Below are positions 36,544-47,945 of a stretch of DNA of 64,000 nucleotides, in pieces. The notes under the pieces are model-generated. The model had not been told where the DNA came from and did not search any database. It worked only from the letters and a program-made list of their open reading frames with translations. A program made the translations under genes and the position numbers. Source of the DNA: an uncultured Nitrospira sp. (GTDB lineage Bacteria > Nitrospirota > Nitrospiria > Nitrospirales > Nitrospiraceae); the NCBI GenBank assembly GCA_902500775.1, contig CABVRZ010000020.1:1-64000 (forward strand). Reading direction: 5' to 3'. Within the stretch, counting starts at the first letter, position 1. Every line of letters begins with the position of its first letter.

Positions 36544-36756
36544 TCCGATCCCTCCTCTTCGTTTCAGCGCGGCGCAACGGCCTCCATCTAGCATGAACGA
36601 ACGGGCTCTTGCAACCACCTCGATCATGATTTCTACCGACCTCTGCATCTCTCGTTACTTTGGGTTCAATAAAACTGTGTGTTCTGCCAATGCAGGACAG
36701 CTGAACGCCAGCGGCGTACTCACTCGGGCCGGTCAAACTCTCAATGGCGGCGTGCT

Positions 36757-37221
36757 ATGATGATGGGATTGATCGTTGAATCCTTGACCCACTTTATGGC
36801 TCTTATCAAGCGCGGATATGACGCATTCAGGAGTACATCGCCTGTGAACCGACTGCCTATCGTCACAGTTGCGTTGGGGATGGTAGCCACTGTAGGAGGG
36901 CCGGCTCTCGATCTGTCTCCCGCCACACAGATTCTTATGGAAAATGGCTCACCCTATTACGTTCCGGCCGCTGCAACGGTGGTCAGTGGCACACCCATCC
37001 GCTGGGAAAACCCGACACCAACACACCACACCGTGACACATAATGACTGCGTAAGCGACGAGCGCTCCTGCCTCTTTGATTCGGGGACGGTCCCACCCGG
37101 AGGCCAATACACCATCTCGGGCCTTGCTCCCGGCCGATATGCCTACCACTGTGGGATCCACCCAATTATGCGAGGACAGTTGATTGTAACGGAAGATCCG
37201 TCAACCCCCGCTCACCTGTAA
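36757..37221 (+). CDS. cupredoxin (plastocyanin-like) protein
   Basis: A 154-residue protein starting MMMGLIVESL, with a hydrophobic N-terminal region around residues 28-45 that may act as an uncleaved anchor or signal. The cupredoxin fold follows: YYVPAAATVVSGTPIRWENP, THHTVTHNDC with one His, and YAYHCGIHPIMRGQLIV with the Cys, His and Met ligands of a type 1 copper site. It likely carries electrons or copper in the periplasm. An earlier start at 36679 is possible but has no supporting features. Confidence 0.83.
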   Translation: MMMGLIVESLTHFMALIKRGYDAFRSTSPVNRLPIVTVALGMVATVGGPALDLSPATQILMENGSPYYVPAAATVVSGTPIRWENPTPTHHTVTHNDCVSDERSCLFDSGTVPPGGQYTISGLAPGRYAYHCGIHPIMRGQLIVTEDPSTPAHL

Positions 37222-37295: not shown

Positions 37296-38792
37296 GTGAG
37301 CATGAAGGCTGCCGCCGCCATCCGCAATCCATTGACCTTGACTGGAGAGAGGCTGACCCTAAGGGCTTGGCATATTCCGGACCTGGTCGCCTACCAACAC
37401 CAACCAGACGAATGGTGGTTAGCTCCACTCGACGACGACCTCCCGTTGATCCGGCTAAACCGTACTGGGGTGGACCTGCTCAAGGCAATGGATGGCCATA
37501 CAACGGTTGGGACACTCGTTGAACAGTATGGCACCAAGATCTGTGGGCCCGATGGGCAGCCTGGGTCCTGGCACCTGGAGCGATGGGCAACCCCCAACTA
37601 CTCCCTCTGCTATTACGGGGCCGAGCCACCTGGAGGCCATCGCCATAAAGCCAAGTGGGATGTTCTGCTTCAACAAGTCCGCGAAGGCTGGTCAGGGCAA
37701 GAAGGCTTTGAGGGTGAGGACCATCTGGAGGACTTCCATCACCATGAGCTGACCGAGAGCTCGGAAGACGACGACCATTTTGATTTGATTGAAACGACCG
37801 TCTCCCATCTCTTCCGTGAACCAAGTGAGGCCTTGGGCGGTCTGACCTACGGCCGACTGCTCATGCGACAGCTGAGACGACTCGGCTGGTTCAATCCCAA
37901 GCCGAAAGTTCTGTTGGAGATCGGGGGTGGCCTTGGGTACCTTGCGCAGGCACTCGGGAAGGATCTCCTGCCGTTCGAAAAGCAAGGGATCACCTACCTC
38001 TCACTCGATATCACGCAACCATTTCTGAAGCGCCAAATTACTCGAGCCAAGGCCGGAGGATGGGGTGCCTCAGGGACCAGAGCCAATGCTGAACAGCTGC
38101 CCTTGGCCGATCACTCTGTCGATCTTGTGATCGACAATGAAAACATGGCCGACATGACACCGGTGCAGCTGAGTAAGAAGGAACTGGCATCTGGGATCGG
38201 AGAAACCCCACAACATCAGGAAGCACTCGATTGGATCAGGCGGCTTCGCCTGCCCATCGAGGCCAACCCGCCGGACTCGGTGATCTTTAACCTAGGACCG
38301 ATACGTTTCGTGGCAGAATTGTGGAGGGTACTGAAGCCAGGTGGCCGGGCGTTTCTCACCGAATTTGGCATCGAAGAAGGCTGGCCGGCCCCTGTCAAAC
38401 TCCCGGGACATACGGAGTACGAAGTGCAATACAGTCACCTGCGCCAAGCCGTACGCTGGCTCGGATTTCAAGAACGGTATCTGTCTCTCCCACAATTTCT
38501 TGGCCTCAAACCAGATACGAAGGTTCTCTGCACCGGCGCCACCTATACGATCCAACGGTTCTGTCAGGCCATCAACCACCCCTTCGCTGTGCGAGCTTAC
38601 AGCGAGAAGGAATTACAACAAACGTTAGGTGACCTCCTCCCCAAACTGCAAGGCCTCCACTACCATGACTTGGCCGACCCGGCCTGGTTCGGCCTCCAAG
38701 ATTTTAAAGTGCTGTTACTCGAAAAACCCGGCGGCGCGCCAAAAGCCCAGTTCACCGAGAACAAAGGCTATCGGTGGTATTCGCAGAAATGA
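37296..38792 (+). CDS. SAM methyltransferase with PqqD-like N-terminal domain
   Basis: A 498-residue protein. Residues about 15-85 resemble a PqqD/RRE winged fold (LTLRAWHIPDLVAYQ, then LIRLNRTGVDLLKAMDGHTT, then VGTLVEQYG). From about 200 on it is a class I methyltransferase: KVLLEIGGGLGYLAQALG for SAM, TYLSLDITQPFLK, SVDLVIDNENMADM and ELWRVLKPGGRAFLTEFGIE. The last 75 residues (HDLADPAWFGLQDFKVLLLE to the end) also occur as isolated fragments at 40405-40629 and 45652-45771. A GTG at 37296 or an ATG at 37302 may start it. The substrate is unknown; the PqqD-like part suggests peptide binding, but this is my reading and no precursor gene is visible. Confidence 0.75.
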   Translation: MSMKAAAAIRNPLTLTGERLTLRAWHIPDLVAYQHQPDEWWLAPLDDDLPLIRLNRTGVDLLKAMDGHTTVGTLVEQYGTKICGPDGQPGSWHLERWATPNYSLCYYGAEPPGGHRHKAKWDVLLQQVREGWSGQEGFEGEDHLEDFHHHELTESSEDDDHFDLIETTVSHLFREPSEALGGLTYGRLLMRQLRRLGWFNPKPKVLLEIGGGLGYLAQALGKDLLPFEKQGITYLSLDITQPFLKRQITRAKAGGWGASGTRANAEQLPLADHSVDLVIDNENMADMTPVQLSKKELASGIGETPQHQEALDWIRRLRLPIEANPPDSVIFNLGPIRFVAELWRVLKPGGRAFLTEFGIEEGWPAPVKLPGHTEYEVQYSHLRQAVRWLGFQERYLSLPQFLGLKPDTKVLCTGATYTIQRFCQAINHPFAVRAYSEKELQQTLGDLLPKLQGLHYHDLADPAWFGLQDFKVLLLEKPGGAPKAQFTENKGYRWYSQK

Positions 38793-38837
38793 GGGGATTG
38801 AGGGCAGCCTGGTTAGTTCTCTGTGCTCGCCGACCGC
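38568..38837 (+). repeat. methyltransferase 3'-end repeat, copy 1
   Basis: The last 74 codons of the methyltransferase plus about 45 bp after its stop match 40405-40675. Against copy 2, 27 of 74 codons differ and 23 of those changes are silent. A shorter part (39 codons) recurs at 45652-45771. Confidence 0.85.
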
Positions 38838-38870
38838 CCAGAGCTCCAACTTTTCGCCCAGGCTTGGAGC

Positions 38871-39243
38871 TTACGATACGACTTTGACACGAAGTGCTTG
38901 TGTCGGAACCTCGGTCAATGCAAGCAACCGTTGATCGTTGGTCAATAAGGTCGCCTCCAACGCCAGGGCGGTGGCAGCCACGATCGAATCCGGCAACTTC
39001 ACGCCATAGCGCCTGCGAAGATTCACAGCGTGACCCCTTGATGGTCTGAGTCAGATCTGTGACTGCGATATCCGACAAGAAGGATCGAACGCGCTGCTCT
39101 TCAGCTGAGGCCAACCCTGGATAAGCCAAGAGCTCCAATTCTGAGATCACGGAGATAACATACGAACCGACAGGAAGAGATTCTGCGAGACGACCACCGA
39201 GAAAATAGAGAATTATATTGGTGTCGAGGACAAAGCGGCGCAC
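38871..39243 (-). pseudogene. VapC-like PIN toxin, frameshifted
   Basis: Starts VRRFVLDTNIILYFLGGRLA (first Asp), then YVISVISELELLAYPGL (Glu), then the frame slips after DLTQTIKG. Removing one base in the GGGGTCACGC context restores AVNLRRRYGVKLPDSIVAAT (Asp) and LLTNDQRLLALTE, with the stop at 38871. With the frame restored the domain is complete. The GTG start overlaps the antitoxin stop (TAGTG). A sequencing error or programmed slippage cannot be excluded. Confidence 0.75.
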
Positions 39244-39473
39244 TAGGCCCACTCATCTCGCAAGCGACGCTGGTAGGTGATGGGATCTTCTGATAACTGA
39301 ATAACACCTTCGTGACACTGGAGCTGTTTCGTCCCATTAGTCCCAGTTGCGGCCCCTAGCTGTTCCTCAATGCGCAACCATTCTTCGTAGGGAGTCAGCA
39401 CCCCGACCGGACGCCCTTCTTCATCAGTCACAAGCTGTTTATGAATCGTGCCCATGAGCTGCATTATAGACAA
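39243..39473 (-). CDS. VapB-like antitoxin
   Basis: A 76-residue protein: MQLMGTIHKQLVTDEEGRPV near the start and VLTPYEEWLRIEEQLG in the middle, then a flexible C-terminal part ending YQRRLRDEWA. It precedes the PIN gene with a 1-bp overlap, as in VapBC operons. The antitoxin role is inferred from the partner. Confidence 0.7.
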   Translation of the reverse strand: MSIMQLMGTIHKQLVTDEEGRPVGVLTPYEEWLRIEEQLGAATGTNGTKQLQCHEGVIQLSEDPITYQRRLRDEWA

Positions 39474-39535: not shown

Positions 39536-40338
39536 TATAGCCAAGCCCTCAATTACTGATTGCCATTGACGGTGGACTGTGGCGATCATGGGGGCATGCG
39601 ATGCTCACCAGATGTGCGCCAACGGGTCATCGATGTTGTCCGAGGCGGGGGCAGTAAGGCCGAAGCGGCTCGGCGGTTCAAGGTGGGTGAGGCCAGCGTG
39701 TACCGCTGGCTCAAGCCTGGCGGCATCACCTCCAAACGTCCAGGCCCGCGCGGTCCTCGCAAGCTGGATTGGGAGCACTTGCGCCGTCATGTCGCGGAAC
39801 CCCCTGATCGCACCCAAGCCGAACGGGCGCGGCATTTCCACGTCTCCCGGCATGGCATCTGGCACGCGCTGCGAAGACTGGCGGTCACGCATAAACAAAA
39901 GGATGGGCTACCGAGAGCGCGACCCTCTCCGACGAAAACGGTTCCTCCGTCTTCGCGAACGGTTCCTGCGCCGCGGCAAACAACCCGTCTACATCGATGA
40001 ATGTGGGGTTGCGCCTTAACGGTGCGGGGGTATGGGTACGCGCCCAAAGGCCAGCGCGTGGATGGCCTGGTTTCCGGGCATCGACGGCCCCGCCCCTCGC
40101 TCATTGCCGCTCGCATCGATGGGCGACTGACAGAGCCCTGTCTGTTCGAAGGCACCTGTGATACGGCGCAGCTCATCGCGGCGACGGGCGCGACCCTGCT
40201 GTTTCTCGCCCCGTATTCTCCAGACCTGAACCCGAGCGAACATGATTTCGCGGCCCTCAAGAAACGCCGGGAGTATCACGACCAGGCCACCCGCGACGAC
40301 ATCGTCAAGGCCTATCACTGATTGAGGGCTTAGCTATA
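39536..40338 (+). mobile_element. IS630-type element, defective
   Basis: An 18-bp inverted repeat with one mismatch (39536-39553 and 40321-40338, TATAGCCAAGCCCTCAAT type) bounds it; both ends have TA as expected for IS630/Tc1 insertion. The inside encodes a broken transposase. At about 0.8 kb it is shorter than a whole IS630 copy. Confidence 0.8.
39596..40321 (+). pseudogene. IS630-family transposase, frameshifted and internally deleted
   Basis: Frame 1 gives MRCSPDVRQRVIDVVRGGG, SKAEAARRFKVGEASVYRWL (helix-turn-helix) and GIWHALRRLAVTHKQK. The next part shifts frame to RERDPLRRKRFLRLRERFLR and PVYIDECG (first Asp), then again to YGYAPKGQRVDGLVSGHRRP, CLFEGTCDTAQLIAATGATL and SPDLNPSEHDFAALKKR (Glu). 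The segment that should lie between EGTC and AQLIAATG, with the second catalytic Asp, is deleted. Inactive. Confidence 0.8.
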
Positions 40339-40404
40339 AACTCTTTCTCGAAATACGCACGGTCTTCTACATGACGCCGATCGAAATGCACGTGGAATCT
40401 ATCG

Positions 40405-40629
40405 GCCATCAATCACCCCTTCGCCGTCCGAGCTTATAGTGAAAAGGAACTGCAGCAGGCTTTGGGCGATCTCCTCCCCAAACTGCAGGGCCTCTACCAT
40501 CACGACCTCGCCGACCCAGCCTGGTTCGGCCTCCAAGACTTCAAAGTGCTGCTACTAGAAAAACCCGGCGGCGCGCCAAAGGCCCAATTCACCGAGAACA
40601 AAGGCTACCAGTGGTATTCGCAGAAATGA
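40405..40629 (+). pseudogene. methyltransferase 3'-end fragment, copy 2
   Basis: Seventy-four codons plus stop that correspond to the end of the methyltransferase at 37296-38792. They differ at 27 codons, with only four amino-acid changes, and similarity runs about 45 bp past the stop. The upstream 64 bp (40339-40403) are not methyltransferase-like. The silent bias shows that this piece diverged as part of a working gene before it was cut off. Confidence 0.85.
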
Positions 40630-40639
40630 GGGCTTGGGC

Positions 40640-41279
40640 AGTCTGCTTGGTTCTCTGTGCTCGCTGACCGCGCACACAGGAATTACCAAATTCTCAAACA
40701 AAGATGGTACTCAGCCAATGTGTGCAGTGGAGAACCAACCAAGCTGCCCTCATTAGGAGAAGAGGGAAGAAATCAGGAAAGCTTCTGCTGCCATGCCTGC
40801 TCTTTTGCACGACGAATCTCACGCATCACTGTGATCATGGCATCGCCCTGCGGATCATCCTGCTGCAACACCGATCGGCGTAAGGCTAACCCGCGTTCGG
40901 GGAGTTCGATGGTACGGCACAAGTTATCGGCGATCCAGGCGTTTTCCGCATTGTCCTTTGGTCCTCGCATTGCGCGCATCCTTTCAAAAGCGATCTGCGC
41001 AAAGTGTACAAGACTCCCTGAATCGGAGCAACGTGAGCCCGTTTCTTGCCACAGTAAATAGTCCGGGGCCGCACCTCGAAGGCAGAGGGAAAGCAGGATG
41101 ATCGATTGCCTGAACTATCTGGATCGCCGTTGACAAGATACGCGGACGGCGGCATAACGGCTTGGCCTTCACACCGCTTCCCTGCAAGAAATTCTTGCAC
41201 GCGGCAGAAATCAGGACAAGAGAACGTTGACTGTGGAGTCTGAAATCAGCACAATCGTGCAACACTCAGATCCTCACTT
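40640..41279. other. spacer between 3'-end copy 2 and SNF2 gene
   Basis: Mostly without recognisable genes apart from one possible small frame on the minus strand (40773-40970). The first 35 bp still match the region after the stop of copy 1. Confidence 0.35.
40773..40970 (-). CDS. small hypothetical protein
   Basis: A 65-residue frame starting at an ATG with AAAGGA 9 nt before it (MRGPKDNAENAWIADNLCRT). It is Arg/Lys/Gln-rich and helical at the end (MITVMREIRRAKEQAWQQ). No family recognised. It could be a small regulator or a chance frame. Confidence 0.3.
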   Translation of the reverse strand: MRGPKDNAENAWIADNLCRTIELPERGLALRRSVLQQDDPQGDAMITVMREIRRAKEQAWQQKLS

Positions 41280-41329: not shown

Positions 41330-44107
41330 ATGAGACGCGAGTCTGTTGTTCAGAACATGATCGATGCGCAGGGGACAGCGATCAATGCCCTCGCACCGAT
41401 ACTGACGCCGCACGGGCGTGTGCTGTTGGCGACCGACGAGACCGACGCCTCCTCGCTTACGCCTGATCTTTCATACCGGCTGCAACAGTCCTTTTCACGC
41501 GGCAGTGGGCACGGATTACTGCAGCTTGGCGCAGGAGAAGTCGGTATCGCAATGCCAGCAGTATTCGGCTACTGGCGTGAGTTCGGCGCTCGTTATGTCG
41601 CGGCAGTCTGCGCGCTGTCGAGCGCGGCAGCCGAGTCTGACTCCGACGCATCCACCGCCGACCCGGCAATTCCACCACCACCTGCCGAGGAACTGGAAGC
41701 CCTCGCCGCCGCCGCGCCGCCGATGACCGGCGCGGAGTATCTGACAGCGTCTGTGCTGCGCTCGTTATGGCACGAGATGGCGGCCGCATGGCAGGCTGAA
41801 TTCATCGAGTCCGGCCTGACGATCCGGAATTTTCTCAAAGCGAAACACCCCTCCTGGAATCTGGTCGGACGGGTGCATTTCAATCTCGCTGAAAACAGAA
41901 AAGACACTGAAGCGCCGTTTGCGTTTCTGGCGACATACACCACGCGATTATCGGCGCACGCCAAGGCCCAGCATGTGCCGCTAGGGCAGGCGCTGCGCGA
42001 GTACGCCGGCGCCGCCAACAAGGAGCAGCTGCTGTCGCTGTTATTGCCGGTGCAGCGGGCGGCGCAACAGTGTCCATGGCTCAAAACGATGGTGACGGAG
42101 GGGGAAATTTTTCACCCGCTGCGCTGGACACCAGCGGAGGCGCTTCAGCTTCTCTCAGACGTCCCGCATCTCGAAGCCGCCGGCGTGATACTGCGCGTAC
42201 CTGGCGCATGGAAGACAGGCCGCCCGCCACGTCCCAAAGTAAGCGCCACCGTCGGCAACACAACACCAGGCACATTCGGCAACGATGCGCTGCTTGATTT
42301 CAAGATGGGAGTGACGCTTGATGGCGAGCCGTTGACCGAAGATGAAATTTCCACATTACTCGCCGGCTCGGACGGCCTTGCGCTGGTGCGCGGTCGCTGG
42401 GTTGAAGTTGACCGAGAAAAACTCAGCGGCATGCTGGCTCGCTTTCGGCAAGCTGAAAACACAGCCGCACAAGGCGGCTTCACTTTTGCGGAGGCGATGC
42501 GCATGCTGGCCGGCGCGCATGGCGAACCAGACGACGCGCCTAGCGCCGATCCCGACTGGTCGAGCGTCGTGGCGGGGCCCTGGTTGGCCGAAACACTTGC
42601 CGGCCTGCGCAGCCCGGAGGGACTGGCGCGCATCGAGCCGGGCAACGCACTGAATGCTGAGCTTCGCCCCTATCAGAAGGCGGGGGTACGCTGGCTGTAT
42701 TTTCTGCACCGTCTGGGATTGGGTGCTTGTCTCGCAGACGACATGGGCTTGGGCAAGACCATTCAGGTGCTGGCTCTGCTGCTGGTGTTGCGCGAACAAC
42801 GTCAACCCGGCATACAGCCGCCGACGAGCATACTGATCGCGCCGGCATCGCTGCTGGCAAACTGGGCCGATGAAATCACACGCTTTGCGCCGACATTGAA
42901 CGCACGGGTGGTGCATCCTTCGGCGATGTCGGCTGTTGAATTGAATGCAATCTCTCCGCAACAACTTGTCGACGTGGATGTGGTCATCACCAGCTACGGC
43001 TCGCTGCTGCGCCTGCCCTGGATGACCGACACCCGCTGGCATCTGGCGATTCTGGACGAAGCGCAAGCGATTAAAAACCCCGATGCGAAACAGACACGCG
43101 CCGTCAAAAAACTCAAGGCCACGACGCGCATCGCGCTGACGGGCACACCCGTCGAAAACCGCCTCACAGATGTCTGGTCGATTTTCGATTTCATCAACCC
43201 CGGCCTGCTCGGTTCGAGCAAGGAATTCGCCAATTTCACCAAACGCTTAGCCGAACGCCCCCATCACCCCTACGCCCCGCTCCGTGAATTGACACGTCCG
43301 TATATCTTGCGCCGTTTGAAGACCGACAAGTCGGTCATCGCCGACCTTCCGGACAAGACCGAATTAAAAGCGTGCTGCCGTTTGAGCCGGAAGCAGACGG
43401 CGCTCTACCAGCAAGCGGTGCAGGAACTCGCCGTACAATTAGAAAACGCCGAAGGCATCACGCGCAGAGGTGCAATCCTGGCGTTCCTGTTACGCTTCAA
43501 GCAAATCTGTAATCATCCGTCGCAATGGTTGGGCGACGGCACCTGGCATGAGGCCGATAGCGGAAAATTTGCGCGGCTGCGTGAGATTGCCGAAGTCATT
43601 GCCGCCCGGCAGGAGAAAGTTCTGGTGTTCACGCAGTTTCGTGAGATCACTGAGCCTGTCGCCGGTTTTTTGGGGTCCGTGTTCGGGCGTCCCGGTTTGG
43701 TGCTGCACGGAGGAACGCCGGTCAAAAATCGCCGCCGACTGTTGCAGGACTTCCAGAAAGACGAGCGGGTTCCGTTCTTTGTCCTCTCCCTCAAGGCGGG
43801 AGGCACGGGGCTGAATCTGACCGCCGCGACACACGTCGTCCACTTCGACCGCTGGTGGAACCCCGCAGTGGAAAATCAGGCTACTGACCGCGCGTTTCGG
43901 ATCGGCCAGAGCAAACACGTGATGGTGCATAAATTTGTGTGCAGCGGCACAATGGAAGAGAAAATAGACGCGCTGATCGAGTCCAAGCAACAACTGTCGA
44001 ACGATGTATTGAAGGGCGGCACCGAAATGCTGCTCACGGAAATGAAGGACGACGAACTGCTCCAGCTCGTCGCGCTTGATGTTCACGCTGCGCTGCAGGG
44101 GGAATAA
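41330..44107 (+). CDS. SNF2-family DEAD/DEAH-type ATPase
   Basis: 925 residues. The N-terminal 430 residues form the bacterial SNF2-associated region (ILTPHGRVLLATDE, GSGHGLLQLGAGEVG, LRYYRPRS absent). The motor starts with LRPYQKAGVRWLYFLHRLGL, Walker A ADDMGLGKTIQVLAL, box II LAILDEAQAIKNP, ALTGTPVENRLTDVWSIFDF, then helicase C motifs VLVFTQFREIT, SLKAGGTGLNLTAATHVVHF and ATDRAFRIGQ. It translocates on double-stranded DNA and probably remodels protein-DNA complexes. Its partner, the SWIM protein, begins 5 bp after its stop. It lies within the 3'-end-repeat-bounded island and is probably acquired. A start at the ATG at 41357 is an alternative. Confidence 0.9.
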   Translation: MRRESVVQNMIDAQGTAINALAPILTPHGRVLLATDETDASSLTPDLSYRLQQSFSRGSGHGLLQLGAGEVGIAMPAVFGYWREFGARYVAAVCALSSAAAESDSDASTADPAIPPPPAEELEALAAAAPPMTGAEYLTASVLRSLWHEMAAAWQAEFIESGLTIRNFLKAKHPSWNLVGRVHFNLAENRKDTEAPFAFLATYTTRLSAHAKAQHVPLGQALREYAGAANKEQLLSLLLPVQRAAQQCPWLKTMVTEGEIFHPLRWTPAEALQLLSDVPHLEAAGVILRVPGAWKTGRPPRPKVSATVGNTTPGTFGNDALLDFKMGVTLDGEPLTEDEISTLLAGSDGLALVRGRWVEVDREKLSGMLARFRQAENTAAQGGFTFAEAMRMLAGAHGEPDDAPSADPDWSSVVAGPWLAETLAGLRSPEGLARIEPGNALNAELRPYQKAGVRWLYFLHRLGLGACLADDMGLGKTIQVLALLLVLREQRQPGIQPPTSILIAPASLLANWADEITRFAPTLNARVVHPSAMSAVELNAISPQQLVDVDVVITSYGSLLRLPWMTDTRWHLAILDEAQAIKNPDAKQTRAVKKLKATTRIALTGTPVENRLTDVWSIFDFINPGLLGSSKEFANFTKRLAERPHHPYAPLRELTRPYILRRLKTDKSVIADLPDKTELKACCRLSRKQTALYQQAVQELAVQLENAEGITRRGAILAFLLRFKQICNHPSQWLGDGTWHEADSGKFARLREIAEVIAARQEKVLVFTQFREITEPVAGFLGSVFGRPGLVLHGGTPVKNRRRLLQDFQKDERVPFFVLSLKAGGTGLNLTAATHVVHFDRWWNPAVENQATDRAFRIGQSKHVMVHKFVCSGTMEEKIDALIESKQQLSNDVLKGGTEMLLTEMKDDELLQLVALDVHAALQGE

Positions 44108-44112
44108 CCGGG

Positions 44113-44934
44113 ATGTTTTATGATTGGAAACCCTACGTGTCCGTCGCCGAGCGCAAACGCAAAGCTGAACGCGAGTTTGCCAAATCGAAGAAAAATGGCG
44201 CGACCATGACACCCGTTGTCATCGCCGGTCGTGCCATCGCCACAACGTTCTGGGGCAAGGCCTGGTGCCAAAACATCGAACGCTATAGCGATTACGCCAA
44301 CCGCTTGCCACGCGGGCGCAGTTATGTACGTAACCGCGCGGTACTTGATCTGCACATTGCCGACGGCGTGGTCAAGGCGCTGGTCATGGGTTCACGGCGT
44401 TACCAGGTCGAAATCACGGTCACGGCGGTGCCGCAGGCGCACTGGAACGCCGTCTGCAAGGATTGCTCGGACGCAATCGATTCACTGGTCGAATTGTTGC
44501 AGGGGCGCTTCTCCGAACACGTCATGGAGCGTATCTGCCGGCCGGGCACCGGCCTGTTTCCCATCCCCAAAGACATCACCTTCGCCTGTTCCTGCCCGGA
44601 CTGGGCATCCATGTGTAAACACGTCGCAGCGGTACTCTACGGCATCGGCGCGCGTCTCGACGAACAACCGCAACTACTGTTCATGCTCCGCAACGTGGAC
44701 GAAAAGGACCTCATCGCCAAAGCCGGGAAAGGCTTACCCCTGTCGAGTCAGTCGCCCAAAACGCGCAGGGTACTCAAAGACACGGAACTGGCCGATGTCT
44801 TCGGTATCGAGATGGCGGGAATAACCAAACCCCTGACGAAGCAGAAGGCAGCGCGCAAGATCAGGCAAAAGTCTACGACTAAATCCGCGAAAAAGAACGC
44901 CCCGAAGGCGCGTAACCCGAGAGTCAAGGCTTGA
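44113..44934 (+). CDS. SWIM zinc-finger protein paired with SNF2 ATPase
   Basis: 273 residues. FWGKAWCQNIERYSDYANRL near residue 43 and RGRSYVRNRAVLDLHI near 66 are typical of this group. The SWIM motif FACSCPDWASMCKHVAAVLY near 155-175 supplies the CxC...CxH zinc ligands. A Lys-rich tail (from about 240) should bind DNA. Prokaryotic SWIM proteins are known to be encoded beside SNF2 ATPases, and the 5-bp gap here supports a complex. The biological job, possibly defence or DNA maintenance, is not established. Confidence 0.88.
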   Translation: MFYDWKPYVSVAERKRKAEREFAKSKKNGATMTPVVIAGRAIATTFWGKAWCQNIERYSDYANRLPRGRSYVRNRAVLDLHIADGVVKALVMGSRRYQVEITVTAVPQAHWNAVCKDCSDAIDSLVELLQGRFSEHVMERICRPGTGLFPIPKDITFACSCPDWASMCKHVAAVLYGIGARLDEQPQLLFMLRNVDEKDLIAKAGKGLPLSSQSPKTRRVLKDTELADVFGIEMAGITKPLTKQKAARKIRQKSTTKSAKKNAPKARNPRVKA

Positions 44935-44994: not shown

Positions 44995-45279
44995 TCACGC
45001 TGCAAATTCGACTCGAATCGTCCTCCCGAGGCGCGCCTCAAGCGTAATGAGCATTTCGAGGCTGAATTTGTCCCATTTCCCTCGAACGAGGTCAGATACG
45101 CGCGATTGTGCAATACCCAGTCGCTTCGCTGCTTCCAATTGAGTCAACTTGTGCTTTTCGATATAGAGACGCAGGTCGCTCATAAGACTTGATCGCATGT
45201 GAAGCACGGCGGCTTCGGCTGGATCAAAACCGAGATCCACAAAAACATTCCCGCTCGATTTGGTAATTTTCTTCTTCAT
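44995..45279 (-). CDS. XRE-family antitoxin (HigA-like)
   Basis: A 94-residue protein with helix-turn-helix LTQLEAAKRLGIAQSRVSDL near residue 45 and GKWDKFSLEMLITLEARLG after it. It follows the toxin gene with a 4-bp overlap (ATGA). In HigBA-type pairs the antitoxin comes second, as here. It is expected to bind the operon promoter. Confidence 0.85.
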   Translation of the reverse strand: MKKKITKSSGNVFVDLGFDPAEAAVLHMRSSLMSDLRLYIEKHKLTQLEAAKRLGIAQSRVSDLVRGKWDKFSLEMLITLEARLGRTIRVEFAA

Positions 45280-45596
45280 GCTCGTTCTCCGATCTGGCGA
45301 TACCGATCACGCGCCAATATGATGTCTTCCTTCCTTGTCTTCTGCGTTTTCTTCTGGAAGGCATGAAGAACATAGACTGCCTTCGCAAATTTGGCCACAT
45401 ACAGTACGCGCCATTCTCCTGAGACATGAATACGAATCTCCCGAACACCGGGACCCACTGCATTGATAGGCTTCCAGTCCGAAGGCTCCAGCCCTCGTTG
45501 AACGAAACCCAACTCAAAGCCAGCGGCACGCTTGGCCTCCGCCGGAAATGCCCTGAGATCGTCACGGCTTGATCCGACGAAGGCTAGCGACTTCAT
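45276..45596 (-). CDS. RelE/HigB-like toxin (Gp49 family)
   Basis: A 106-residue phage-derived Gp49-like toxin: LAFVGSSRDDLRAFPAEAKR, KPINAVGPGVREIRIHVSGE, WRVLYVAKFAKAVYVLHAFQ, KKTQKTRKEDIILARDRYRQ. These are standard landmarks of ribosome-dependent mRNA interferases. It comes first in the operon, followed by the XRE antitoxin. Confidence 0.87.
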   Translation of the reverse strand: MKSLAFVGSSRDDLRAFPAEAKRAAGFELGFVQRGLEPSDWKPINAVGPGVREIRIHVSGEWRVLYVAKFAKAVYVLHAFQKKTQKTRKEDIILARDRYRQIGERA

Positions 45597-45651
45597 CGGG
45601 TAGATTATATAAGTTTATTGATACACAATTCAATGCGTGTCATCAGGGAAA

Positions 45652-45771
45652 GCCGACCCGGACTGGTTCGGCCTGCAAGATTTTAAAGTGCTATTGCTCG
45701 AAAAGCCCGGCGGCGCCCCAAAAGCCCAGTTCACCGAGAGCAAGGGCTACCGGTGGTATTCACAGAAGTAG
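45652..45771 (+). pseudogene. methyltransferase 3'-end fragment, copy 3
   Basis: Thirty-nine codons plus a TAG stop match the end of the methyltransferase gene (codons for DPDWFGLQDFKVLLLEKPGG and on to WYSQK). Against copy 1, 11 codons differ and nine are silent. It lies right after the HigBA-type pair and marks the far side of the SNF2-SWIM module. Confidence 0.85.
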
Positions 45772-45863: not shown

Positions 45864-46871
45864 TTACCTGCCTCGAAAAGGTGTGGCTGACACCATGACA
45901 TCAGCATCAATACCGTGGTTCTTCAATAGAATCTCAACTGCCTTCCTACGTTTCTCTTTATCCAGATGTGGGCCCACAATAATTCGTCGAATCGGGAGTG
46001 TTTCTAGCTCCTGATCTTCAAACAGATGAATACACGGCACAGCTATTCCGTCCCGAGCAAATGCATATATTTTGCGAAAAGGCGTAGTGACCTCATTGGC
46101 TAGTTCTCGTTGAGTTTTAGGTGATGGCTCACCTATTACTATTCGCACTTCTCTCTCCTCATTGAAGCCTCTATGTTTCCAAAATGTGGATAACACGGCA
46201 ACACTGTCAAACGCTTTATAGTCTTCCCAGGGCCCCTCCCCCTTAAGACATTCAGCGAAGCTATCACGCACACTTTGAAGGTGGTTCAGAATCTGTTTAT
46301 CACGAACAAATGATAAACCTTCGACGCCTTCATCATATTGCACATCACCAAATACCAGCGTCTCCTCAGAATCATGATAGTGTCCAGCGTCGTTACGGAG
46401 AAGTGAGTCTAGCCCCTTAGTATCAAAAACAATGGCATAGCCTCCATCCTGACCATATCCACGCCACTGACTCAGTAATCCATTTTGAGAAACCCATTCG
46501 TCGCAGGCTGTACAAAATGAAGTCACATAATGATCCTGCGTTTGTTCTTGTGCCTTTCTGAAAGCTGCAAGAAACTCTGCTAAACATTGTTCCAGCGATT
46601 CAGGAACATGCCTCTGAAGTTCCGGCTTCAGAATCATCCCTAACCGATTGCTAAAAAAACCTATCACCTCTTCAGAATCATTAAGAAATCCAGCATGAGT
46701 CGCCCACAGTGTTTTGCTAGAGACAATCCCGTTAAGTCCATCAGCAGTTGTATAGTGCATTAGCTCTGGATGCTCCTCATGCATGGGCTTATCGGGTGGC
46801 AGACTTAGCTCCGTCATATATTCGTTAGGGAAGGTCTGATTAATTCTGTTTTTTGGCCAATCAGCTCTCAA
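45864..46871 (-). CDS. DUF2971 protein
   Basis: 335 residues, or 317 from the ATG at 46817 (MTELSLPPDKPMHEE). DUF2971 features are visible: LMHYTTADGLNGIVSSKTLW, THAGFLNDSEEVIGFF, YVTSFCTACDEWVSQNGLLS, QWRGYGQDGGYAIVFD and, later, FWKHRGFNEEREVRIVIGE. The reaction is unknown; the HYT...LW...LND pattern recalls ADP-ribosyltransferase-like proteins, which is only my inference. DUF2971 genes are often found among mobile or defence genes. It is AT-richer than ppx/gppA next to it and probably belongs to the island. Confidence 0.78.
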   Translation of the reverse strand: MRADWPKNRINQTFPNEYMTELSLPPDKPMHEEHPELMHYTTADGLNGIVSSKTLWATHAGFLNDSEEVIGFFSNRLGMILKPELQRHVPESLEQCLAEFLAAFRKAQEQTQDHYVTSFCTACDEWVSQNGLLSQWRGYGQDGGYAIVFDTKGLDSLLRNDAGHYHDSEETLVFGDVQYDEGVEGLSFVRDKQILNHLQSVRDSFAECLKGEGPWEDYKAFDSVAVLSTFWKHRGFNEEREVRIVIGEPSPKTQRELANEVTTPFRKIYAFARDGIAVPCIHLFEDQELETLPIRRIIVGPHLDKEKRRKAVEILLKNHGIDADVMVSATPFRGR

Positions 46872-46991: not shown

Positions 46992-47945
46992 TCACTCCGT
47001 GATTCGTGTGGTTAGATTAAGCAGCACCCCCTCCCTCAACCCCAAATCACTGACCAGACATTCCTTCTGTCCCAGCGTCTCCATGATTGTTTTAATAATG
47101 ATCGCGCCGGCGGTGATGACCTCTTCTCTGTTTTTCTCCAAGCCTGGCAGGCCAATGCGGTCGGCTTTCTTTCGACTGAGTAATGTCTGCTCGAGTTCTT
47201 GGATCCGGTCGAGTTTCAATACATAGTTGTGAATGCGTGCTGATTCATAGGTCTGGAGCTTCTGTGCCATGGCTGCGAGAGCTGTGATTGTCCCAGCCGT
47301 CCCGATGAATGTCATCCGCCCATAATTTCCCATCTCCGCCACGGCCGTTCTTGTTTCTCCGCTCACCCACTCGCGTGCCTGGGCTACTTCCTCATCGGTA
47401 GGAGGATCATGCCTCAACAGCCGCTCACAGAGGCGGACGACTCCGATATCGATGGATCGCGTGATTGGATCCTGACCAGGCCGATCCAAGATAAACTCCG
47501 TACTCCCGCCACCGATATCCAGCGCCAGGATGTCTGTCACTCCGACAGGCAAGCCGGAACGAATGCCGAGCAATGTCCGTCGCGCTTCTTCCTCGCCCGA
47601 GATGAGTTCGACCTCAAGGCCACATTCTGCTTTGACTCGATCCAAAAACTCCCCTCGATTGCTGGCATCACGAACGGCACTCGTTGCCACTACAGCGGTT
47701 GCTTCAACTTGATGACTGTCGATGACCTTCCGCCACTCTTGGAGACAGTGAATTACGCGATCCATCGCGTCGGCGCTCAGCCGCTTCGTCTGATCGACAC
47801 CTTCTCCTAGTCGGAGAATACGTCGCTCGGACTGAAGCTCGTTGAGGGGATGCCCGGGGGTATGCTCTGCAATCAACAAACGACAGGTGAGTGTTCCGAT
47901 ATCGATGCCGGCCAATCGGCGCGTACGCTTCGCCGGCTCCGTCAT
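46992..47945 (-). CDS. Ppx/GppA-family exopolyphosphatase
   Basis: 317 residues: AGIDIGTLTCRLLIAEH at the N-terminus (phosphate-binding loop 1), VATSAVRDASNRGEFLDRV, LISGEEEARRTLLGI, LALDIGGGSTEFIL (loop 2) and IGTAGTITALAAM. It hydrolyses polyphosphate or pppGpp; the short form without a C-terminal domain is common. Overlaps the next gene by 4 bp. Confidence 0.92.
   Translation of the reverse strand: MTEPAKRTRRLAGIDIGTLTCRLLIAEHTPGHPLNELQSERRILRLGEGVDQTKRLSADAMDRVIHCLQEWRKVIDSHQVEATAVVATSAVRDASNRGEFLDRVKAECGLEVELISGEEEARRTLLGIRSGLPVGVTDILALDIGGGSTEFILDRPGQDPITRSIDIGVVRLCERLLRHDPPTDEEVAQAREWVSGETRTAVAEMGNYGRMTFIGTAGTITALAAMAQKLQTYESARIHNYVLKLDRIQELEQTLLSRKKADRIGLPGLEKNREEVITAGAIIIKTIMETLGQKECLVSDLGLREGVLLNLTTRITE

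Follow-up and report, generated by a model that had tools for sequence, protein, structure and literature searches.

Restriction-modification units are addiction units, as toxin-antitoxin (TA) pairs are, and they were reportedly found by Nobusato in 2000 to have inserted with long target duplication. SGI1 in trmE is an example of an integrative element that sits at the 3' end of a gene. Insertion with long target duplication has been described for restriction-modification units (PMC3874152, PMC3031569, PMC1643837), and TA cassettes in chromosomal (super)integrons have been discussed (PMC2654758).

The locus analysed here lies in a stretch of 64,000 nucleotides of uncultured Nitrospira DNA (the window) and resembles each of these systems in part. 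Like the restriction-modification units, the TA pairs of its array are addiction units without a known transposase, target-derived direct repeats of about 100 bp lie on either side of them, and relatives have empty sites; in contrast to those units, they are type II TA pairs, the same core-gene end has been reused to give tandem arrays, and the way in which the repeats have diverged from the host gene implies exchange across species. As in the (super)integrons, small TA units split by repeats are gained, lost and reordered, and addiction would stabilize the array, but the repeat derives from a host gene and is not an attC site, and in 11 genomes no PF00589 match of the integron-integrase type came from the contig bearing the array or, where contigs were long enough, from the 60 kb around it. 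As with SGI1 in trmE, the target gene receives a new 3' end and so stays intact, a remnant end is left behind and accretion is in tandem, although the array units are far too small for an integrase and their junctions differ by cassette type. The repeated copies of a gene end at the edges of inserted TA pairs are unusual and suggest that these pairs move in a cassette-like, integrase-free way, and no description of such arrays was found in the part of the literature covered by our searches. This locus bears on how TA pairs can pass from chromosome to chromosome when neither a transposase nor an integrase is at hand, and because empty, single and stacked insertions, all with readable junctions, are found in dozens of related genomes, the mode of insertion, the role of homologous recombination and the stabilizing effect of addiction become testable. 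The array, with a core-gene end as the repeat of tandem TA cassettes, is more interesting than the RRE-like methyltransferase that the earlier note had singled out, and it was not reported there.

A core gene followed by a variable toxin-antitoxin array

The ORF at 37296-38792 (+ strand, GTG start, 498 aa) is a real gene, and both its coordinates and its reading as a SAM methyltransferase in the earlier note were borne out, the former by the ORF list and the latter by Pfam Methyltransf_11 (residues 207-282, E 8.9e-10, above the cut-off) and by Foldseek, in which the domain matched TleD/RebM-type class I methyltransferases (E about 1e-8). The protein is certainly a class I SAM methyltransferase with a Rossmann-type domain, for which NCBIfam gave weak BioC/UbiE-type matches only. 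A protein search placed the gene in 76 of the 245 genomes of the phylum, all of them within two families of one order, and an orthologue was present in 49 of 56 genomes around a third Nitrospirales family. It is a single-copy, near-universal core gene in these three families, with orthologues 57-94% identical across the Nitrospirales. The plasmid search with the protein gave no matches, and no relative of its last 76 aa was found in the viral contigs searched.

The same search of the phylum returned many partial matches, mostly 3'-terminal, which lie on the same strand just downstream of the methyltransferase gene. Such 3'-end fragments occur in 27 of 67 usable Nitrospirales loci, and because they are also present in the one-contig genomes G202 and G108 they are not an assembly artefact. 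The copied segment comprises the last 65-230 nt (rarely 410) of the gene. Between the methyltransferase gene and ppx there is a variable array of type II TA pairs, mostly convergent to the methyltransferase gene, in which a fragment typically bounds each pair on its promoter side. Most cassettes, of 480-950 bp, contain only a TA pair. The flanks are conserved (ScpA, pentapeptide, cupredoxin and methyltransferase on one side, ppx and recG on the other), and in empty sites the gap from gene to ppx is only 141 bp (L031), 39 bp (L071) or 96 bp (L080, N. defluvii).

As assigned from their sequences, HigB-like, Gp49, PIN, RelB-like and HTH-antitoxin families of type II TA systems sit as adjacent pairs in the array. 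The types are HigB/HigA (Gp49 type), HigB/GraT-like (PF05015) with an HTH antitoxin, and VapC PIN with a RelB-like protein; a fourth combines a DUF2204/AbiEii-type nucleotidyltransferase with a 65-aa partner and would be a TA pair judging by its layout. The partner (65-68 aa; 5039-5233 in L004, 40773-40979 in the window) matched no Pfam or PADLOC family, and the window copy no NCBIfam family; it is a possible new antitoxin.

Two further observations concern the gap as a whole. In L159, L065 and L037 a second, diverged HigB-like pair abuts ppx from the other side of the gap, and in L159 the 3' end of ppx is copied alongside it. In four loci of deeper lineages (L019, L037, L041, L050) the gap contains PF10136 'site-specific recombinase' proteins of about 720 aa.

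The window contains, in order, the methyltransferase gene, a VapC/RelB-like pair in which a frameshift has broken VapC and an IS630-like element has inserted, fragment 1 with the full palindrome, the nucleotidyltransferase partner alone, an SNF2 helicase with a SWIM protein, HigA/HigB, fragment 2, a DUF2971 gene, ppx and recG. Its features are as follows.

36679..37221, + strand: cupredoxin-like gene, directly upstream of the methyltransferase gene in Nitrospira (Pfam Cupredoxin_1, E 3.7e-7)
37296..38792, + strand: class I SAM methyltransferase with a putative PqqD/RRE-like N-terminus (Pfam, Foldseek, 57-94% identity across the order)
37386..37529, + strand: putative PqqD/RRE-like core, residues about 31-78 (Pfam, profile comparison, AF2, Foldseek, VIA)
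37893..38375, + strand: methyltransferase domain, residues about 200-360 (Pfam, Foldseek)
38799..38842, + strand: left arm of a terminator-like palindrome, curtailed by cassette 1 (39 nt match the left arm that follows fragment 1 at 87%; no right arm here)
38874..39243, - strand: VapC-like PIN toxin gene, broken over two frames (tblastn pieces; homologue in L001 with Pfam PIN, E 8e-13)
39243..39473, - strand: RelB/Phd-like antitoxin gene of cassette 1 (Pfam RelB-like, E 8e-6)
39536..40338, + strand: IS630-like insertion inside cassette 1 (39-nt terminal inverted repeats; IS630 named by inspection)
40404..40629, + strand: fragment 1, copy of the final 222 nt of the methyltransferase gene with the stop codon (255 bits, shuffled maximum 34)
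40636..40752, + strand: complete terminator-like palindrome after fragment 1 (inverted repeat; fold z -3.2)
40773..40979, - strand: small partner gene of the nucleotidyltransferase pair (partner homologues in L004 and other loci; nucleotidyltransferase gene missing here)
41330..44107, + strand: SNF2-family helicase, cargo (Pfam, E 1e-64; copy in L015 94% identical)
44113..44934, + strand: SWIM zinc-finger protein, cargo (Pfam SWIM, E 0.007; paired with the helicase in L015)
44995..45279, - strand: HigA-type antitoxin (Pfam HTH_37, E 7e-19)
45276..45596, - strand: HigB-type toxin, Gp49-like (Pfam Gp49, E 9e-26)
45652..45771, + strand: fragment 2, copy of the final 117 nt of the methyltransferase gene with the stop codon (150 bits, shuffled maximum 34)
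45864..46871, - strand: DUF2971 protein, cargo, distal end of the variable region (Pfam DUF2971, E 3.6e-8)
46992..47945, - strand: Ppx/GppA gene, conserved, bordering the variable region on the right (synteny in most loci)

The protein search of the window's genome recovered the two fragments as additional partial matches, at 40399-40626 and 45649-45768. At the DNA level the homology of fragment 1 extends to 40674 and corresponds to gene nt 1272-1545 (85% identity), that of fragment 2 covers 45652-45767 (91%), and the duplication that belongs to cassette 1 covers both the coding end and the terminator arm. The palindrome, imperfect and of about 120 bp, is whole only after fragment 1 and is cut after the methyltransferase gene itself; the idea that it is a dispersed mobile element was rejected, since the genome holds no other copy. 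The transposase of the IS630-like element lies in two frames (ORFs 39579-40019 and 40001-40321). The SNF2 helicase (DUF3670) and the SWIM protein form a pair amid the TA units that is found again in another species (L015) with about 90% identity. A defence system was also considered for the SNF2 gene and rejected, as the PADLOC matches are those of a generic helicase and no complete defence system was recognised. The ppx gene adjoins the methyltransferase gene in family f2 as well.

Junctions, turnover and divergence of the gene-end copies

Each TA type tends to keep its own junction with the gene fragment across species, with exceptions. The nucleotidyltransferase pair meets the fragment at -66 to -72, the HigB/GraT-like (HTH) pair mostly at -121 to -129, the HigBA pair mostly at -118 to -120 (with -79 in L027 as an exception) and the VapC/RelB pair at -115, -128 or -149. 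The recurrence of a junction in scattered species means that it arose once, the unit of TA pair plus fragment being inherited or transferred afterwards. On the gene tree a minimum of 9-12 changes is needed for the presence of fragments, and of 5-11 for that of single cassette types. The order of cassettes varies too, with the nucleotidyltransferase first in L005, and the HigB/GraT-like pair first and the nucleotidyltransferase second in L070 and L124. Distances between cassettes mostly track those between the genes (r 0.78-0.97, with outliers such as L065 and L037), so that much of the pattern may reflect vertical descent and loss.

Fragment 1 differs by 14% from the gene end of the window itself, while the gene end of the nearest relative, L003, is 7% away. 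Of 31 changes relative to the window gene, 26 are silent and 5 alter an amino acid. These distances and the mostly silent changes indicate that this fragment probably once belonged to a working gene in a different lineage. For the fragments of all loci taken together the ratio of silent to replacing changes is 336:269, a mix which shows that other fragments are older and decaying. A diversity-generating retroelement was dropped as a candidate by inspection, since the differences of the window fragments are mostly silent and the gene end is highly conserved.

Similar brackets were found around TA genes elsewhere, namely at 14 of 44 TA loci away from the methyltransferase gene, compared with 9 of 132 upstream core-gene windows (mostly of low identity) and none of 25 PqqD loci as controls; among the 14, however, a few brackets consist of paralogous genes and not of gene ends, which counts against the insertion account given below. 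A nucleotidyltransferase pair adjoins lon in L126, an 86-bp repeat from around the lon stop codon lying beyond the pair, and another adjoins a 422-aa gene in L130, with 105 bp repeated. The end of uvrA is duplicated nearby in L131 (lon and uvrA were named from their sequence). HigB-like pairs are bracketed by the copied end of a 301-aa gene in L144 (165 bp, 87%) and by a copied gene end in L158 (74 bp, 88%).

How the cassettes may have moved

From this architecture we infer, leaning towards it as the best account, that TA units were inserted with long target duplication at the 3' end of a core gene, one with a weak RRE-like core, and were then shuffled by homologous recombination. A TA unit would enter at the 3' end of the methyltransferase gene with a long duplication of the target, leaving the gene whole and the old 3' end behind as a fragment. 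Homologous recombination between the repeats would then allow cassettes of TA pair plus fragment to be gained, lost and reordered within and between species, and addiction would oppose their loss by deletion between repeats. The direct repeats of about 100 bp that flank inserted TA units are single in relatives (the empty sites L031, L080 and others), and such repeats are natural substrates of RecA, which would explain gain, loss, reordering and exchange between species. The divergence of the window fragments from the gene, mostly at silent sites, points to later exchange, and this high silent share argues against a simple local duplication. Against the whole account, the correlation noted above means that vertical descent with loss may explain much, neither insertion nor excision nor a circular form was seen, and long target duplication is a description without a known enzyme. 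More tentatively, the core-gene end could be the attachment repeat of an integrase-free platform, from which TA-plus-fragment units travel between species by homologous recombination and stack in tandem, and the same route could seed TA pairs at lon, uvrA and other genes.

An unlikely alternative is site-specific integration, in which the 3' end of the gene would serve as attachment site for a tyrosine or serine recombinase supplied in trans and the fragments would be attR remnants of small elements that lack an integrase. The restored 3' end of a conserved gene, which is typical of integrases, would fit, as would the many gains and losses of arrays at one gene and the shortest common segment being the last 40-65 bp; but the crossover points vary by TA type from -37 to -409, and the last 23 codons show no sharp silent-site constraint (0.535 against a mean of 0.45, equalled elsewhere in the gene). 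The PF10136 genes in the gap also speak for such a recombinase, although three of the four loci that have them carry no fragments, and in the 11 genomes neither a PF00589 nor a PF00239 gene turned up on the contig with the array or, as far as contigs reach, in the 60 kb around it. That ordinary IS transposition carried the TA pairs and gene fragments is highly improbable. In its favour are the IS630-like element in cassette 1 of the window and the transposase domains, of IS1595 and other types, that some gaps contain (among the 25 commonest Pfam families in 62 other array ORFs); but the IS630-like element sits within the cassette and has its own ends, most of the 480-950 bp cassettes are a TA pair alone, and no IS was recognised in arrays such as L004 and L005. 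Long target duplication followed by recombination keeps our preference as the reading of the array.

The N-terminal segment of the methyltransferase and its gene neighbours

The earlier note had seen the pattern of PqqD-like recognition domains at residues 15-85, and we found this pattern to be present beyond chance, although it covers the central half of the domain only. Pfam PqqD (PF05402) matched residues 52-77 (profile positions 13-38 of 67) with E 0.0086 and 16.8 bits, below the curated cut-off of 23.4 bits; a match with E <1 was obtained for 21 of 48 orthologues (best E 0.0028) and at E <0.1 for none of nine distant orthologues from sister lineages. When real Nitrospirales PqqD domains were gathered and aligned as a profile for comparison, the alignment with the N-terminal profile spanned 27 columns ('vrLNr.G..lL.aMdG..tv..Ll..y', E 2.6e-4) and scored 25.1, above all of 200 column shuffles (mean 10.4, sd 2.0, maximum 18.0) and above the reversed-profile control (11.9). 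A search of PDB sequences with the N-terminal profile returned ankyrin-type chance matches only.

The AF2 model of the N-terminus (mean pLDDT 54) has the order b-b-b-a-(b)-a-a, with strands at 18-23, 26-30 and 39-41 and helices at 43-52, 58-65 and 77-84 in fragment numbering, and in the full-length model this part was too weak (pLDDT 52). With the fragment model, Foldseek ranked LynD (4v1u, 4v1v, 4v1t), a heterocyclase bearing an RRE, in first place and TruD lower, at insignificant E values of 1.1 and up, and the best VIA match (Z 2.9) was TbiB1, an RRE protein whose structure was solved together with its leader peptide. RRE proteins came first in the structure searches, but with a model of low confidence.

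The fusion of a PqqD/RRE-like core to a class I methyltransferase is partly supported by three lines, each weak, that agree (Pfam in orthologues, profile comparison, and Foldseek with VIA), and on balance the N-terminus is probably an RRE-like winged helix. It would share with PqqD/RRE domains the central LNxxG...DGxxTVxxL core and the predicted b-b-b-a-a order; it differs from them in falling below the Pfam cut-off, in its uncertain third helix and in being fused to a methyltransferase, and no precursor peptide was noticed nearby in the loci inspected. There is a sizeable chance, short of even, that LNxxG...MDGxxTVxxLL is instead a coincidence or a very distant helix pair and that the protein is a plain methyltransferase with an accessory domain of its own. 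The sub-threshold Pfam score, the lack of matches in distant orthologues, the 27 of 67 columns matched, the low pLDDT and the Foldseek E values above 1 all speak for this, as do the many false RRE matches that winged-helix domains yield according to a structure-based survey (PMC12710340). It has to face a profile score 7 sd over the shuffles and the fact that sequence profile, Foldseek and VIA each lead to PqqD/RRE proteins.

In Nitrospira a cupredoxin-like gene precedes the methyltransferase gene in nearly all loci with enough sequence. In two sister families (f2 and f39), a PF14518 iron-containing redox enzyme lies directly before it in eight of the loci inspected. Like CADD and BesC, this operon partner belongs to PF14518 and is haem-oxygenase-like; unlike them, its NCBIfam scores for CADD and BesC fall well short of the cut-offs, and PF14518 was not matched in the window's genome. 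In one f39 locus (L243, on G297 contig 68) the methyltransferase and oxidase pair adjoins a full pqqA-B-C-D-E set and a dehydrogenase, as assigned from gene order and sequence inspection.

The absence of any other RiPP gene nearby, as the earlier note had it, holds for the window genes inspected. Its proposal that the protein works alone or in trans as a RiPP methyltransferase and binds a ribosomal precursor peptide appears improbable: the weak RRE-like core remains in its favour, together with the operon shared with an oxidase of PqqC-like fold in f2 and f39 and the pqqA-E neighbourhood of L243, but pqq adjacency is limited to one of five f39 loci, which also led us to drop a general link between methyltransferase and pqq, and no conserved short peptide was noticed beside the gene in the loci inspected. 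Moreover, the gene is near-universal in the order, including genomes without a recognisable PqqD locus, so that a housekeeping enzyme fits better than specialised RiPP tailoring. The enzyme would methylate some substrate, perhaps held through the RRE-like domain. The partnership with the PF14518 oxidase is the best lead on its function, a two-enzyme modification pathway of oxidase and methyltransferase being plausible in the sister families, and their conserved operon points to a definite pathway that can be looked for in a major nitrifier group. In some f39 genomes, a Cys-rich protein of 157 aa precedes the oxidase gene.
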